From a virus, in IMG/VR virus record IMGVR_UViG_3300027985_000380, positions 1 through 33,485 of that record: a stretch of DNA of 33,485 nt; one strand, given 5' to 3'. The translations under genes were made by a program, and so were the position numbers. The notes under the pieces are model-generated. The model had not been told where the DNA came from. It saw nothing but the letters and a program-made list of their open reading frames with translations, and searched no databases. Each line of letters starts with the position of its first letter. The first letter of the stretch is position 1. Below, piece after piece: positions 16,593 to 33,485 of this stretch.

Positions 16593-16667
16593 TGGTAGTA
16601 ATGATTGGGCTTGAACCAATAACCAAAGCCTTATAAGGACTCTGCTCTACCGTTGAGCTACATTACT
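16593..16667 (-). tRNA. tRNA-Ile (anticodon UAU)
   Basis: A full 75-base cloverleaf is readable on the minus strand. The acceptor AGTAATG pairs perfectly with CATTACT; the D arm is GCTC/GAGC with loop AACGGTA; the anticodon stem GAGTC/GGCTT closes loop CTTATAA; a five-base variable loop follows; the T arm is ATTGG/CCAAT with loop TTCAAGC. Discriminator A and an encoded CCA complete it. Anticodon UAU reads AUA, a codon frequent in this AT-rich genome. It lies 44 bases upstream of terS in the late leader, so it may be excised from the late transcript. Confidence 0.92.
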
Positions 16668-16672
16668 ATTTG

Positions 16673-16713
16673 CTTCATAGAAGTTTGAAAGGAGTAAGTA
16701 TTCTTCTATGAAG
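16673..16713 (-). other. Perfect 11-bp inverted repeat just 5' of the tRNA
   Basis: CTTCATAGAAG and CTTCTATGAAG pair perfectly across 19 bases, ending five bases before the tRNA. In RNA it would be a stem-loop in the tRNA leader and could position processing. As DNA it could be an operator for a dimeric regulator such as the upstream ArpU-like protein. Confidence 0.6.
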
Positions 16714-16731
16714 TGTAGGAGAATAAAGTAA

Positions 16732-16756
16732 AAGAAGTGTTTTTTACGCACTTCTT
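16732..16756 (-). other. Hairpin near the start of the late leader
   Basis: AAGAAGTG pairs with CACTTCTT (8 bp, nine-base loop). On the minus strand it is followed by TTACTTTATT, so it may be a weak terminator for the early operon. If the -10 at 16765-16770 is used, it would instead be the 5' cap hairpin of the late mRNA. Confidence 0.5.
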
Positions 16757-16764
16757 ATAATATA

Positions 16765-23156: not shown

Positions 23157-23711
23157 TTAATTGTGTTTTTTATAATCTGTAATTGTAAATATTTCGTTAT
23201 TTTTGTTCTTAACTGTTTTATTATTTTTTTTAACAGCCGAATATATATAACTTGAACTTCTATCAAGAAATATATTAGCTTGAGAAAACGATCTAAATGA
23301 GTATGAAATTTCTTTATTATCAACTAAAGTTATTTTATGCTGTGGGTATAAACCATTTTCAAAACCGTGTCTAATATTATCAGCGAGAGTCAACCATTCG
23401 ATATTTTCTAATCTGTTATCTAATCTGTTTCCGTTTTTATGATTAACAGTTAATTTTTTATCTGGTATTCCAAGAAATGTATAAGCAATCAATCTAGCGA
23501 CTAAATGGTCTTTATATTTCCCATCTTTCCACAACGAAACTCTAGCTCCAGTTTGTTTGTTGTTTCCTCTACCTTTTAAAATTCTTGATTTCCAAGTTCT
23601 TACACCGTGTTTTTCGGTATATGTTGTTTTTGATTTTTTAGTTCTAATTCTACCATTTGTTGAAGCTTCATATATTCCTTCATAACCTGGTATGTCTTTC
23701 CATAGTTCCAT
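23157..23711 (-). CDS. NUMOD4/HNH homing endonuclease
   Basis: The 184-residue protein begins with a NUMOD4 DNA-binding motif (WKDIPGYEGIYEASTNGRIR), followed by a basic loop, the HNH nuclease core (VNHKNGNRLDNRLENIEWLT then ADNIRHG), and a C-terminal NUMOD1-like HTH (SFRSFSQANIFLDRS). It is a free-standing selfish gene that cuts DNA lacking it. It lies between SSB and the HTH peptide and has its own promoter-like sequence, so it looks like an insertion. Confidence 0.85.
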   Translation of the reverse strand: MELWKDIPGYEGIYEASTNGRIRTKKSKTTYTEKHGVRTWKSRILKGRGNNKQTGARVSLWKDGKYKDHLVARLIAYTFLGIPDKKLTVNHKNGNRLDNRLENIEWLTLADNIRHGFENGLYPQHKITLVDNKEISYSFRSFSQANIFLDRSSSYIYSAVKKNNKTVKNKNNEIFTITDYKKHN

Positions 23712-29397: not shown

Positions 29398-29603
29398 TAT
29401 TCTACCTCCTTAAACCATTCATTTAAATGTTGTTCATTGATTTTTAATGTAATATTATCTCTTCTTAAAAAAATAAATTCCTTATCATACGGCAATTCTA
29501 ATCTTTCCCATACATGTTGTTTCTGTAAAACAATACTTACATTTTCCGCATAATCAACGCCTACGGTAAGAGTATTCCATTTTCTGGGTTTATACTTTTT
29601 CAT
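29397..29603 (-). CDS. Unknown 68-residue early protein
   Basis: The product is basic at the start (MKKYKPRKWNTLTVGVDY) and has strands (VSIVLQKQHVWERL, FIFLRRDNITLKI) ending in an HLNEWFKEVE helix. GGGAAG precedes the ATG. No family is recognised. Confidence 0.62.
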   Translation of the reverse strand: MKKYKPRKWNTLTVGVDYAENVSIVLQKQHVWERLELPYDKEFIFLRRDNITLKINEQHLNEWFKEVE

Positions 29604-29625
29604 CTTTCTTCCCTCTCTTTTTAGG

Positions 29626-29857: not shown

Positions 29858-30088
29858 TTAATAAAGATATAAAAACCAACCGCCAATACCAACAAATATT
29901 ACTCCTGGTATGTAGAATAGAGCGCTCCAATGTGGGATTAATATTGATAACGAATCTCCGCTGATTATGAATCCAAACTTTTCGTACATCAATACCATTT
30001 GATAAATTGAAGCAAATCCAATTAGCAATATACCTATAACCAAGCATAAAATGGGTAATAATATTGTTTGTCTTTTTCTTATTTTCAT
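29858..30088 (-). CDS. Two-helix membrane protein
   Basis: The 76-residue protein has a basic start (MKIRKRQ) then helix 1 (about 8-29, LLPILCLVIGILLIGFAS), a loop, and helix 2 (about 56-75). The ATG lies 28 bases after structured element B, behind a purine-rich AGAGAGAAGAAAG stretch rather than a strict ribosome site. An early membrane protein might block superinfection; this is speculation. Confidence 0.65.
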   Translation of the reverse strand: MKIRKRQTILLPILCLVIGILLIGFASIYQMVLMYEKFGFIISGDSLSILIPHWSALFYIPGVIFVGIGGWFLYLY

Positions 30089-30112
30089 CTTTCTTCTCTC
30101 TCTTTCTTGAGT

Positions 30113-30169
30113 GCTAGTTCACTCATTACATAGCCCTATTGAATAAGGCCATGTTGTCAATAAACTAAC
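30113..30169 (-). ncRNA. Structured leader element, copy B
   Basis: On the minus strand, GTTAGTTTA pairs with TGAACTAGC (9 bp including two G-U pairs), then an internal loop TTGACA / AATGAG, then inner hairpin ACATGGCCTTAT / ATAGGGCTATGT (12 bp, loop TCA). It lies in the leader of the two-helix membrane gene. Loop and outer 3' arm match copy A exactly, while the inner stem differs but stays paired. Confidence 0.6.
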
Positions 30170-30197
30170 CTTGAATTGGAATTTCAATCACCTCCTT

Positions 30198-30374
30198 TTA
30201 TTTGGTTTCTTTCATTTTTATTTTAAAGCCTGTATTTAGTGATTCTAAATATTTCTTTGTTGATTCAATTGATTGGTATGGCGCTAAAGACCAATATGGC
30301 TCTATTAAAGGTCCACCAGTATGTATTTGAAGTTTATTTTCTCTATATCTATATCTTATAATTAATTCTTTCAT
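30198..30374 (-). CDS. 58-residue early protein, unknown
   Basis: The product MKELIIRYRYRENKLQIHTG continues with GPLIEPYWSLAPYQSIES and a basic end (FKIKMKETK). It is probably beta then alpha. AAAGGAG precedes the ATG, which follows element A by 37 bases, and its stop is followed by AAAGGAGG. No family is recognised. Confidence 0.72.
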   Translation of the reverse strand: MKELIIRYRYRENKLQIHTGGPLIEPYWSLAPYQSIESTKKYLESLNTGFKIKMKETK

Positions 30375-30411
30375 TTTTCTTCTCCTTTGCGCTTATGCGA
30401 CTTTTATTTGA

Positions 30412-30469
30412 GCTAGTTCACTCATTGTTGACCGTTCGGGGGAAAACGATCAACTGTCAATGAATTAAC
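30412..30469 (-). ncRNA. Structured leader element, copy A
   Basis: On the minus strand, GTTAATTCA pairs with TGAACTAGC (8 of 9), then an internal loop TTGACA / AATGAG, then inner hairpin GTTGATCGTT / AACGGTCAAC (10 bp with one G-U, loop TTCCCCCG). It lies between two early genes, in the leader of the 58-residue gene. See copy B. Confidence 0.6.
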
Positions 30470-30474
30470 CTCCT

Positions 30475-30618
30475 TTATTTACTTGTTAATATTTCAATAT
30501 ATACTTTCGCTTCATATTCCTTATCAAAAATATTTAATGCCTTTTTATTTTTAAAAACTTGATACATTGTCATAAGATAACCGTTTCTGTATTCTTCGAT
30601 TCGTTCTATCGTATACAT
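30475..30618 (-). CDS. 47-residue early protein, first gene of the early operon
   Basis: The product MYTIERIEEYRNGYLMTMYQ continues with VFKNKKALNIFDKEYEAKVY; it looks like a small beta-alpha protein. AAAGGAGG precedes the ATG, about 26 bases after the predicted transcription start, so it should be the first and earliest protein made. Function unknown. Confidence 0.72.
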   Translation of the reverse strand: MYTIERIEEYRNGYLMTMYQVFKNKKALNIFDKEYEAKVYIEILTSK

Positions 30619-30650: not shown

Positions 30651-30678
30651 ATTATACACCATTATACACCATTGTCAA
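30651..30678 (-). promoter_or_regulatory. Main early promoter
   Basis: Minus-strand TTGACA (30673-30678), 16 bases, TATAAT (30651-30656). Both hexamers match the vegetative sigma consensus perfectly. A second TATAAT at 30661-30666 comes from a tandem duplication of ATGGTGTATA. An A/T-rich stretch upstream could act as an UP element. It directly follows the terminator of the late unit. Confidence 0.88.
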
Positions 30679-30705: not shown

Positions 30706-30739
30706 TTGCAAATAAAAAAAGCGTATCTACGATACGCTT
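30706..30739 (-). terminator. Intrinsic terminator of the late transcription unit
   Basis: Minus strand AAGCGTATC pairs with GATACGCTT (9 bp) across loop GTA, followed by TTTTTATTTG. The stem includes the last codons of the final membrane gene, and its TAG stop straddles the loop. Confidence 0.92.
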
Positions 30740-31572
30740 AAAGTTTGTTCTTCTATTTTTTGTTCTATTTTAGGTTCGTTTAGTTTCTTTAATACATGTG
30801 TTCCGTTCTTAAAATCTACGTAACTATTATATAATGTATCTTTAAGTAAAACTTGTTTTGGAATTTCGAACTTGAACCTAAATAATTGTTTTGTATAATT
30901 CATAATAAAGGTAATGAATAATCCAACAGAGATGATTGATAGCGAAGCGATAGCATCACTAAGATTACCTACTTGAAATATCATATTAACGGTCATTGCA
31001 GCGAACAAAATTCCAGTAAAACCTTTTTTAATTTGTGCCTTACGTTTGCCTTCGTTATGTTTAATAGACGCTGTATAGGCAATCTCGCCGTTTTTAGTAA
31101 TGGTATAATATAAAGGAAAGCCAAAGCCATAAATATTATGTTTCACTGGCTTAAGGTTGTTATATTCTTTAAGTTCCTTTTTGGTAAGTTCTTCAACCTT
31201 TTTATCGCCTACCTTTAATAAGTAATCCTCCTGAATTGCTAGCAACTCGTGAGCGTTTAACCTTTTAACAAACTCTCTAAATGATTCTTTCTCGTTGTTG
31301 TAAGATTCAATTATTTTATTGTTAAGTTTATCGGCAAGTTCAAACTCATCACTATTCAGCCCACTTGAAACACCGTTGTCATAAGCGCCTGAAACCATAT
31401 TAACATTAAGCCATATTACAAACAATACCTGAACCCATGTTTGCCAATCTTGCAAAGTTGGTATAATTTCACCGCTAAATGTCATAGTCTTGTAGGCTAG
31501 ATAAGCCACTAGCGATAATGCGATGATGAACCAAACAGAATTTTTATATACAGTATTTAAGAATTTACTCAT
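30727..31572 (-). CDS. Four-helix membrane protein, end of the late unit
   Basis: The 281-residue protein has predicted helices at about 12-30, 45-62, 184-202 and 207-226. Between helices 2 and 3 lies a charged soluble domain of about 120 residues (NSDEFELADKLNNKIIESYN then KRLNAHELLAIQED), and a 55-residue basic tail follows helix 4. It is too large for a classic holin and has no enzyme motif. As the last late gene, after other membrane genes, it may take part in host release or membrane remodelling. The stop codon is inside the terminator hairpin. Confidence 0.68.
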   Translation of the reverse strand: MSKFLNTVYKNSVWFIIALSLVAYLAYKTMTFSGEIIPTLQDWQTWVQVLFVIWLNVNMVSGAYDNGVSSGLNSDEFELADKLNNKIIESYNNEKESFREFVKRLNAHELLAIQEDYLLKVGDKKVEELTKKELKEYNNLKPVKHNIYGFGFPLYYTITKNGEIAYTASIKHNEGKRKAQIKKGFTGILFAAMTVNMIFQVGNLSDAIASLSIISVGLFITFIMNYTKQLFRFKFEIPKQVLLKDTLYNSYVDFKNGTHVLKKLNEPKIEQKIEEQTLSVS

Positions 31573-32216
31573 TTTAATGCCTCTTTTAATTGATTAAGTA
31601 ATGTGCTTTCGGCTTTATCTGCTTGTTCTTGCGATAAATAACCTTGCTGAACTAAATATTCAACACCATAAATACCCCACGAAATCGTCGCTATAAGAAA
31701 TACATTAAGCATACCACCTAAAATAGTATTGACAACCCATAAAAACGCTGTAATGGTCACTAACGCAAGGAATACAGCAAGTCTTGGCTTCGATTTATAC
31801 CACTGCATTTTTTTAGTTACAATCAACGCAACAATTAATACAGCGAATACGCTAATCACAAATGTTATTGGTAACTTATAAGATGTTTGTTTTTGAATTT
31901 CAAGAGCTTTGATGTCTTTAAGTTCATTTTCTACGTATGAATAGTAATGTTTATCTATTTTAATAATCGTTTCGCTATCGATATAAAAACCGTAATGTTC
32001 ATTATAATTAGTTAAGTCATTTCCTGAATAAGTAGCGTTTTCTGCATAAATGAAATAATTTTCTTCTACTTGTTCAACAACTACGTTATAAATTTCAACG
32101 TCATCGATGTAATAATCAGGAACTATGTTAAAAATTGTGGCTGAAAGAAATAAATAGATTGCTAACGGAGCGCCTAAAGTTATTATTTTAACAATGTCGT
32201 ATATGCTATTTTTCAT
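31569..32216 (-). CDS. Four-helix membrane protein with extracytoplasmic loop
   Basis: The 215-residue protein has helices at about 11-31, 115-134, 146-166 and 167-187. The 80-residue region after helix 1 is acidic and Tyr/Asn-rich (YYIDDVEIYNVVVEQVEENY) and probably faces outside. A C-terminal helix rich in Glu/Gln/Ala follows (EQADKAESTLLNQLKEA). It overlaps both neighbours. No lysis-enzyme motif; a role with the adjacent holin-like protein is inferred. Confidence 0.65.
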   Translation of the reverse strand: MKNSIYDIVKIITLGAPLAIYLFLSATIFNIVPDYYIDDVEIYNVVVEQVEENYFIYAENATYSGNDLTNYNEHYGFYIDSETIIKIDKHYYSYVENELKDIKALEIQKQTSYKLPITFVISVFAVLIVALIVTKKMQWYKSKPRLAVFLALVTITAFLWVVNTILGGMLNVFLIATISWGIYGVEYLVQQGYLSQEQADKAESTLLNQLKEALK

Positions 32217-32640
32217 TTAGAATACTCTCAATTAATTCCCTTGCTGTTTGAGTTAACATAGGATTATCTAATTTTGTCTTGAGTTCCGTTTCGTGCAATA
32301 CATTATTTCTCTGTGTTATCTTATTACTTTCTAGAGTGACTTTTTCAAGTGATGATACTTTAGCTTCGAGTTTTAAGTAGCCATCAGCCATTTTTAAAAA
32401 TTCGTTTGCTAATGAGTTATATTTTTCATCGCTTTTTGTTTTTGCTTTAGTTAAGAACGATTGAACCGCTAATCCACCACTACCAACAAGTAAAGTTGAA
32501 CCACCACTTATTAATGCAGAAAACCAATTCATTTGTGGAATTAATGCTTGTACGTCTGTCGGTAAAGCCATATAAGTTGCAGAAATAATACTCCAACCTA
32601 ACATTCCGTAAACCGTAATATTAAACAATGCTTTTTTCAT
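32206..32640 (-). CDS. Holin-like protein with two helices and a coiled tail
   Basis: The 144-residue product has two membrane helices (about 4-26, VYGMLGWSIISATYMAL, and 43-64, ISGGSTLLVGSGGLAVQS) and a long cytoplasmic coiled coil (about 70-110) with a C-terminal helix. Size and topology fit holins of low-GC phages, though many lack so long a tail. It stops with TAG and overlaps the next gene. Confidence 0.58.
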   Translation of the reverse strand: MKKALFNITVYGMLGWSIISATYMALPTDVQALIPQMNWFSALISGGSTLLVGSGGLAVQSFLTKAKTKSDEKYNSLANEFLKMADGYLKLEAKVSSLEKVTLESNKITQRNNVLHETELKTKLDNPMLTQTARELIESILNEK

Positions 32641-32942
32641 CGTGAAATCAACCCCTTAACTATTTCAATATTTTCTAACTTAATCTTTTTTAATTCTTCT
32701 AAAATAGAATCAATTTTATCTTCTTGCGAATTGATCAACTTATACGCTTTTTGTAATTCATCTTTTAATCTTGAATTTTCTTCCTTGTTTTCTTTAATGC
32801 CACTTTTCAAACCGTCTATTAATTCTTGTAGTTTAATTTTTCCTACTTCCATATTAACTAATTCATCATAACCAATTTGATTTGGCGAAATTACATAACA
32901 AATATGCCCAACAGGCGCTTTTGCTAATGATGTTGTTCTCAT
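32637..32942 (-). CDS. Coiled-coil protein in the late membrane cassette
   Basis: The 101-residue product has a short hydrophobic N-terminal stretch (VGHICYVISPNQIGYDELVN) and then a coiled coil (about 33-95: IDGLKSGIKENKEENSRLKD, LQKAYKLINSQEDKIDS). No strong membrane helix. It lies between two membrane genes, with GGAGGG upstream. It could regulate or tether the holin-like protein. No family is recognised. Confidence 0.6.
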   Translation of the reverse strand: MRTTSLAKAPVGHICYVISPNQIGYDELVNMEVGKIKLQELIDGLKSGIKENKEENSRLKDELQKAYKLINSQEDKIDSILEELKKIKLENIEIVKGLISR

Positions 32943-33359: not shown

Positions 33360-33379
33360 AGGGGGTTTTTAAGCCCCCT
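33360..33379 (-). other. GC-rich hairpin between fibre and CD1375-like genes
   Basis: AGGGGG and CCCCCT pair across an eight-base loop (6 bp). Neither strand has a T-run after it, so it is a poor intrinsic terminator; it may stabilise the upstream mRNA end or partly pause transcription. Only its right arm is present in the left copy at the window start. Confidence 0.5.
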
Positions 33380-33485
33380 AAACCGTTATTTTTTATAACC
33401 GTGAACTTTAACAACATCAACCAAGAAATCGCCTACATAGGAATTGTCTGTGCGATATAATTTAACCTTAAGAATACTATCAGCA
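33367..33485. repeat. Terminal overlap, right copy
   Basis: Identical to bases 1-119, marking circular closure. The 3' end of the fibre gene is repeated here as a fragment on the minus strand from 33386 to 33485 and should not be counted twice. Confidence 0.95.

Follow-up and report, generated by a model that had tools for sequence, protein, structure and literature searches.

Two copies of a structured element beside orphan Shine-Dalgarno sites in a presumed early operon of a phage: a possible processing or stability element of early mRNA

The window analyzed here, the whole 33,485-nt stretch of DNA held in IMG/VR record IMGVR_UViG_3300027985_000380, is probably a complete phage genome, because its ends carry a 119-bp direct terminal repeat (positions 1-119 and 33367-33485, leaving a 33,366-bp unit). 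The minus strand carries nearly all genes of the phage. The terminase and portal proteins are ~26-30% identical to those of Streptococcus phage Javan351, Anaerostipes phages, and Solobacterium phages, and the replisome organiser and Erf proteins likewise point to phages of Bacillota. A NUMOD4/HNH homing-type endonuclease gene (23157-23711) lies between the recombination and replication genes. A cluster encoding proteins of 281, 215, 144, and 101 aa, some of them membrane-like, occupies 30727-32942, just before the early promoter; no PHROGs family matched these four proteins, and the 281-aa protein had no match in the phage collection.

Three small genes of 47, 58, and 76 codons follow this promoter, and from the promoter and their position they are presumed to form an early operon. 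The features of the region, in the order in which they would be transcribed, are:

30719 to 30739, minus strand: intrinsic terminator at the end of the preceding operon, from terminator prediction
30651 to 30678, minus strand: sigma70-type promoter (TTGACA-16-TATAAT, 12/12) at the start of the presumed early operon with both elements
30475 to 30618, minus strand: 47-aa gene upstream of element A, of no known family
30412 to 30469, minus strand: element A, an imperfect hairpin with outer stem GTTAATTCA/TGAACTAGC and loop strands TTGACA/AATGAG
30198 to 30374, minus strand: 58-aa gene between elements A and B, of no known family
30113 to 30169, minus strand: element B, on the same plan as A, with outer stem GTTAGTTTA/TGAACTAGC and loop strands TTGACA/AATGAG
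29858 to 30088, minus strand: 76-aa gene downstream of B, a probable membrane protein of no known family

The ribosome-binding cassette AAAGAGAGRGAAGAAAGATGAAAA is present in the same region at 30082-30105 and 29597-29620 (a 96% repeat), before the genes at 30088 and 29603, and may be a sign of module duplication within the early operon.

Element A (~58 nt) occupies the gap between the 47- and 58-codon genes and element B (~58 nt) that between the 58- and 76-codon genes; these gaps, of ~100 nt each, come after the first two genes of the operon. A preliminary description of this DNA gave the coordinates and shared minus-strand plan of both copies correctly, as rechecked on sequence and fold, and rightly placed each copy just before a small early gene (58 and 76 codons), but its location of the elements in early leaders must be revised, as both are intergenic and not in a 5′ leader. 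Each copy forms an imperfect hairpin of ~25 bp, about halfway along which lies a conserved segment of interrupted pairing. A and B agree at 15 of 15 positions in the 3′ block, AATGAGTGAACTAGC, and at 15 of 17 in the 5′ block, AGGTTARTTYATTGACA. The nine-base outer stem reported earlier does end in an identical arm but is not fully paired, there being an A-C mismatch in copy A. Similarly, the two strands of what was described as a strictly identical 6x6 internal loop are indeed the same in both copies, but the fold mostly pairs their positions (U-G, U-A, and A-U), so that only a G-G mismatch and a 2x2 CA/AA loop remain unpaired. The inner stem of B comprises 12 bp, including two G-U, closed by a 3-nt loop, as had been proposed; that of A, for which 10 bp and an 8-base loop had been given, comprises 11 bp including two U-G with a 6-nt loop when the terminal U-G is counted.

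Both copies fold far better than expected from their composition. The minimum folding energy is -20.9 kcal/mol for A (z -4.9) and -26.5 kcal/mol for B (z -7.4), no shuffled sequence folds as well as either, and by structure z-score B ranks second and A fourth among 11,142 60-nt windows from both strands of the genome. Most inner-stem pairs differ between the copies while pairing is kept: 7 of the 23 modeled pairs, all in the inner stem, are changed on both sides, and 97.8% of cells in the structure as a whole are paired, the sole unpaired cell being the A-C of the outer stem of A. Sliding the pairing partners abolishes this agreement, in support of the earlier proposal that retained pairing without retained sequence reflects selection on structure. 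Since no further copy or Rfam family was found, covariation here is drawn from two sequences, the minimum, and is suggestive rather than statistical proof. In shuffled genomes, two exact copies of a stretch of 15 nt or more are expected to lie within 500 nt of each other 0.13 times per genome, and chance becomes untenable once the mirrored 15/17 5′ block and a strong hairpin in both copies are also required. The duplicated structured element is thus a real observation.

Several lines of evidence concern the nucleic acid in which this structure acts. On the sense (coding) strand, almost every non-Watson-Crick pair is a G-U, which becomes A-C on the complementary strand; the antisense fold reaches only -13.0 and -9.4 kcal/mol, compared with -20.9 and -26.5 for the sense strand, and a covariance model scores the antisense strand at 18 bits, compared with 82 and 77 for the sense copies. 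Because G-U pairing strongly favors folding of the sense strand over that of the antisense, the sense transcript rather than a DNA cruciform is the likely target. Selection on either RNA or cruciform structure had been suggested; the former is favored, and the poor antisense folding speaks against the latter.

Known categories do not account for the element. In Rfam no family was found in the region at gathering or relaxed thresholds, the best relaxed match (18 bits) being far below its cut-off, and no U run follows the hairpins, in agreement with the earlier statement that no known riboswitch or terminator is recognized. No intrinsic terminator was called at A or B, neither of which is followed by a T run, and the TTGACA within the element is not part of a promoter, as no -10 hexamer lies 16-18 nt away. 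ESAS sequences of cluster K mycobacteriophages are similar in having conserved inverted arms around a variable middle, in several copies per genome, before non-structural genes; however, their spacers are mostly 4-13 bp, in contrast to the paired 27-28 nt stem-loop of A and B (PMC3203893). In those phages ESAS occur together with a 13-bp box, GGGATAGGAGCCC, adjacent to the start codon (PMC3203893). This box has 0 matches here with up to 2 mismatches allowed, and A and B are accordingly not counted among the cluster K SAS/ESAS.

The genome holds exactly two copies, with the next model score at 13 bits against 82 and 77, opposite-strand matches at the same sites aside. The preliminary description expected further copies in related phages and took their absence as grounds for refutation. 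None was found among the matches listed by pattern scans of IMG/VR, in the phage collection, in ~1,150 genomes of Bacillota, or in 50 related viral records, an outcome that formally goes against the element. A blastn comparison of the early region with 50,697 phage records had no result beyond chance matches, none of which fell within the elements. Exact pattern scans of IMG/VR returned about the chance number of matches, and among the matches listed none folds into the element; the same was true, among the matches listed, of a 15-mer scan of genome contigs, for which a 15-mer is too short to be specific. Covariance model searches of 50 viral records related by portal and Erf proteins and of ~1,150 Bacillota genomes yielded no copy, the large covariance runs having used stricter filters without a positive control. 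These absences are weak evidence. The test has little power because the sole close relative found in the collections by terminase and portal searches, IMG/VR contig IMGVR_UViG_3300012147_000986 (portal 64% identical), is a 4.1-kb fragment without the early region (portal gene 534-2216), and the collections may omit records very near this phage.

A feature that the preliminary description did not include is an orphan Shine-Dalgarno (SD) site (AAAGGAGG) preceding each copy, immediately at the stop codon that ends the gene before it. These sites and two possible mini-ORFs are:

30469 to 30475, minus strand: orphan SD AAGGAGG directly 5′ of A, its last G being the first base of the outer stem
30191 to 30197, minus strand: orphan SD AAGGAGG (in AAAGGAGGTGA), 21 nt 5′ of B, from the listing of AGGAGG sites
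30393 to 30425, minus strand: possible mini-ORF (MSELAQIKVA) whose initial AUG lies within the 3′ loop strand of A
30085 to 30126, minus strand: possible mini-ORF MSELALKKEREER of B, its stop overlapping the ATG of the 76-aa gene

When all AGGAGG sites on the coding strand were listed and the start codons downstream checked, these were the only two intergenic sites without an ATG 4-10 nt downstream. The sites at 31232 (inside the 281-codon gene) and 16544 (just inside a 154-codon gene) also have no nearby start but are not intergenic, and all remaining sites have an ATG 4-10 nt downstream. The orphan site of A is followed only by a TTG, 8 nt downstream, which opens 12 codons; that of B is likewise without ATG and has a TTG only 3 nt away, opening 22 codons. 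Association of a structured element with such gene-free SD sites is unusual.

New in sequence, A and B belong to a known general kind, the intercistronic structured element of phage mRNA, and are probably a control or processing mark on messenger RNA. For their function, we tentatively favor a cis-acting processing or stability element of early mRNA, in the form of an RNase III-type hairpin and/or an exonuclease barrier with STAB-SD-like ribosome parking. Host RNA polymerase would start at the promoter at 30678-30651 and transcribe the small early genes, and the transcript would fold into a ~25-bp imperfect hairpin in each ~100-nt gap between the first three genes, placed just after a strong SD with no proper gene behind it. 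RNase III-type cleavage might occur at or near the conserved internal loop, the stem being long enough. Cleavage by RNase III typically leaves a 2-nt 3′ overhang. In addition or instead, the hairpin may act as an exonuclease block, while a ribosome parked on the orphan SD could shield the message as in STAB-SD leaders, and the outcome would be expression of successive early genes at different levels. In this scheme early expression, cleavage, stabilization, and ribosome parking are all inferred, and the RNases are assumed to be those of the host.

This proposal is ranked first because the ~25-pair interrupted stem resembles T7 R1.1 and because the inner stem varies freely, which is consistent with RNase III sites of B. 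subtilis. T7 R1.1 is a 60-nt RNase III site of early mRNA, a hairpin with an internal loop (PMC6121014), and in B. subtilis what defines RNase III targets is chiefly that pairing near the cut is consistent, preferences for particular base pairs being modest (PMC11780869). A and B share with the RNase III signals of T7 (R1.1) and of the early mRNA of Bacillus phage SP82 an imperfect hairpin of ~60 nt with an internal loop, between early polycistronic genes and present more than once per operon, and their 23 modeled pairs in one stacked stem give the imperfect duplex of about two helical turns typical of such signals. As in RNase III substrates, the inner stem is free in sequence and held in length, and both copies lie downstream of a perfect promoter, itself after a terminator. 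The paired but changed stems, the G-U bias of the sense strand, the coincidence of the only two intergenic AGGAGG sites lacking an ATG with the two elements, and the accessible SD of the gene after A (see below) also speak for this role. However, the loop of T7 R1.1 is asymmetric (4/5; PMC6121014), whereas that of A and B is symmetric and strictly conserved in sequence, with cleavage only proposed. The ribosome-parking component draws on STAB-SD and polypurine 5′ mRNA stabilizers of Bacillota (cryIIIA and others), which set a strong SD without a proper start beside a stable stem-loop; the site of B (AAAGGAGGTGA), with its TTG at 3 nt, may be of this kind. In Bacillota a strong SD stabilizes mRNA even without a start codon (PMC3997798), mutations in the ribosome-binding site shortened the life of SP82 phage mRNA (PMC7509114), and the aprE leader is stabilized by a stem-loop plus SD (PMC11805744).

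Other observations fit this processing or stability role less well. The strong SD abuts the hairpin in A but is 21 nt off in B. The known STAB-SD elements lie near mRNA 5′ ends; A and B, in contrast, are operon-internal, and so internal to the presumed primary transcript unless the mRNA is processed; A moreover has its TTG 8 nt downstream. Strict conservation of the loop sequence is not a requirement of RNase III, and for this reason the 21 conserved loop and arm bases exceed what the model needs. If the role is nonetheless correct, the phage tags its early mRNA with an RNA module that can be used repeatedly and that combines a ribosome parking site with a hairpin that is processed or protective, a compact means of giving neighboring genes different mRNA lifetimes.

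The same excess of conservation in the loop strands and 3′ arm over RNase III needs keeps a dedicated RNA-binding protein in play. A phage or host protein could read the conserved loop strands together with the outer stem, the inner stem serving as scaffold, and so regulate the early mRNA; identical loop strands and 3′ arm around an inner stem that only keeps its pairing are the pattern expected under selection by a loop-binding protein. No candidate for such a protein was identified, however, and masking of the next start is not seen: the SD of the next gene after A is predicted to be open (0.98 unpaired), so hairpin A does not simply mask that start. We regard this as doubtful, though the foremost alternative. 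A protein that reads the loop would constitute a new RNA-protein switch. Broader, and a shade more doubtful, is the proposal of a new class of phage cis-regulatory RNA, defined by a conserved internal loop, freely varying stems, and an orphan SD; a dedicated factor of the phage or host would read it and so set the expression of successive early genes.

The orphan SD sites at both copies could alternatively belong to a translational device. Either a TTG-started leader ORF might run through the hairpin to a stop at AATGAGTGA, or the ribosome-binding site might be split, with looping out of the inner hairpin bringing the SD near the AUG of the mini-ORF (MSELA...), itself coupled to the gene that follows. 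In both copies the conserved 3′ block, ATG AGT GAA CTA GC, opens MSELA..., and the mini-ORF of B overlaps the start of the next gene as ATGA. Coding for MSELA may be the cause of conservation in the 3′ block, but this would not explain the matching 5′ arm or the stem. Split sites are used by T4 genes 38 and 25, with the same order of SD, stem-loop, and AUG (PMC3014915), but there the spacing after looping out is 5 and 11 nt; counted on the sequence, the collapsed SD-AUG spacing remains ~15 nt for A, a value that B reaches only with the weaker AAGG, outside the 5-11 nt of the T4 sites. The TTG-started peptides are not conserved either (MTVDRFPPNGQQ and MTTWPYSIGLCNE) and end at different stop codons, and the other genes with AGGAGG start with ATG. 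Altogether such a device is unlikely.

Duplication of a structured RNA near the promoter of a presumed early operon also recalls the put RNAs of HK022, two copies of which lie in early transcripts; in a put-like role, the nascent hairpin of A or B would bind RNA polymerase and cause read-through of later stops. We consider this improbable: put RNAs comprise two stem-loops in ~70 nt, with one copy per early operon, and act on E. coli RNA polymerase (PMC9378689), whereas A and B have a single stem-loop each and so fall outside that group, and the coding strand of the early region offers no convincing intrinsic terminator further downstream. Similarly improbable is a repeated DNA element (mobile, protein-binding, or cruciform) without an RNA role, which would account for two intergenic copies with conserved arms but not for the G-U bias of the sense strand, and which has no copies elsewhere in this genome or in the other genomes searched. 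Chance resemblance or functionless duplication, which having only two known copies and no relatives found would suit, is very improbable given the rarity of nearby 15-nt repeats and the changed but still paired inner stems, whose sequence a recent duplicate would have kept.

The top structure z-score of the genome belongs to a different locus, the tRNA-Ile(TAT) region at 16593-16758, where strong hairpins on both strands lie alongside the tRNA and possibly represent a terminator or a tRNA processing region.
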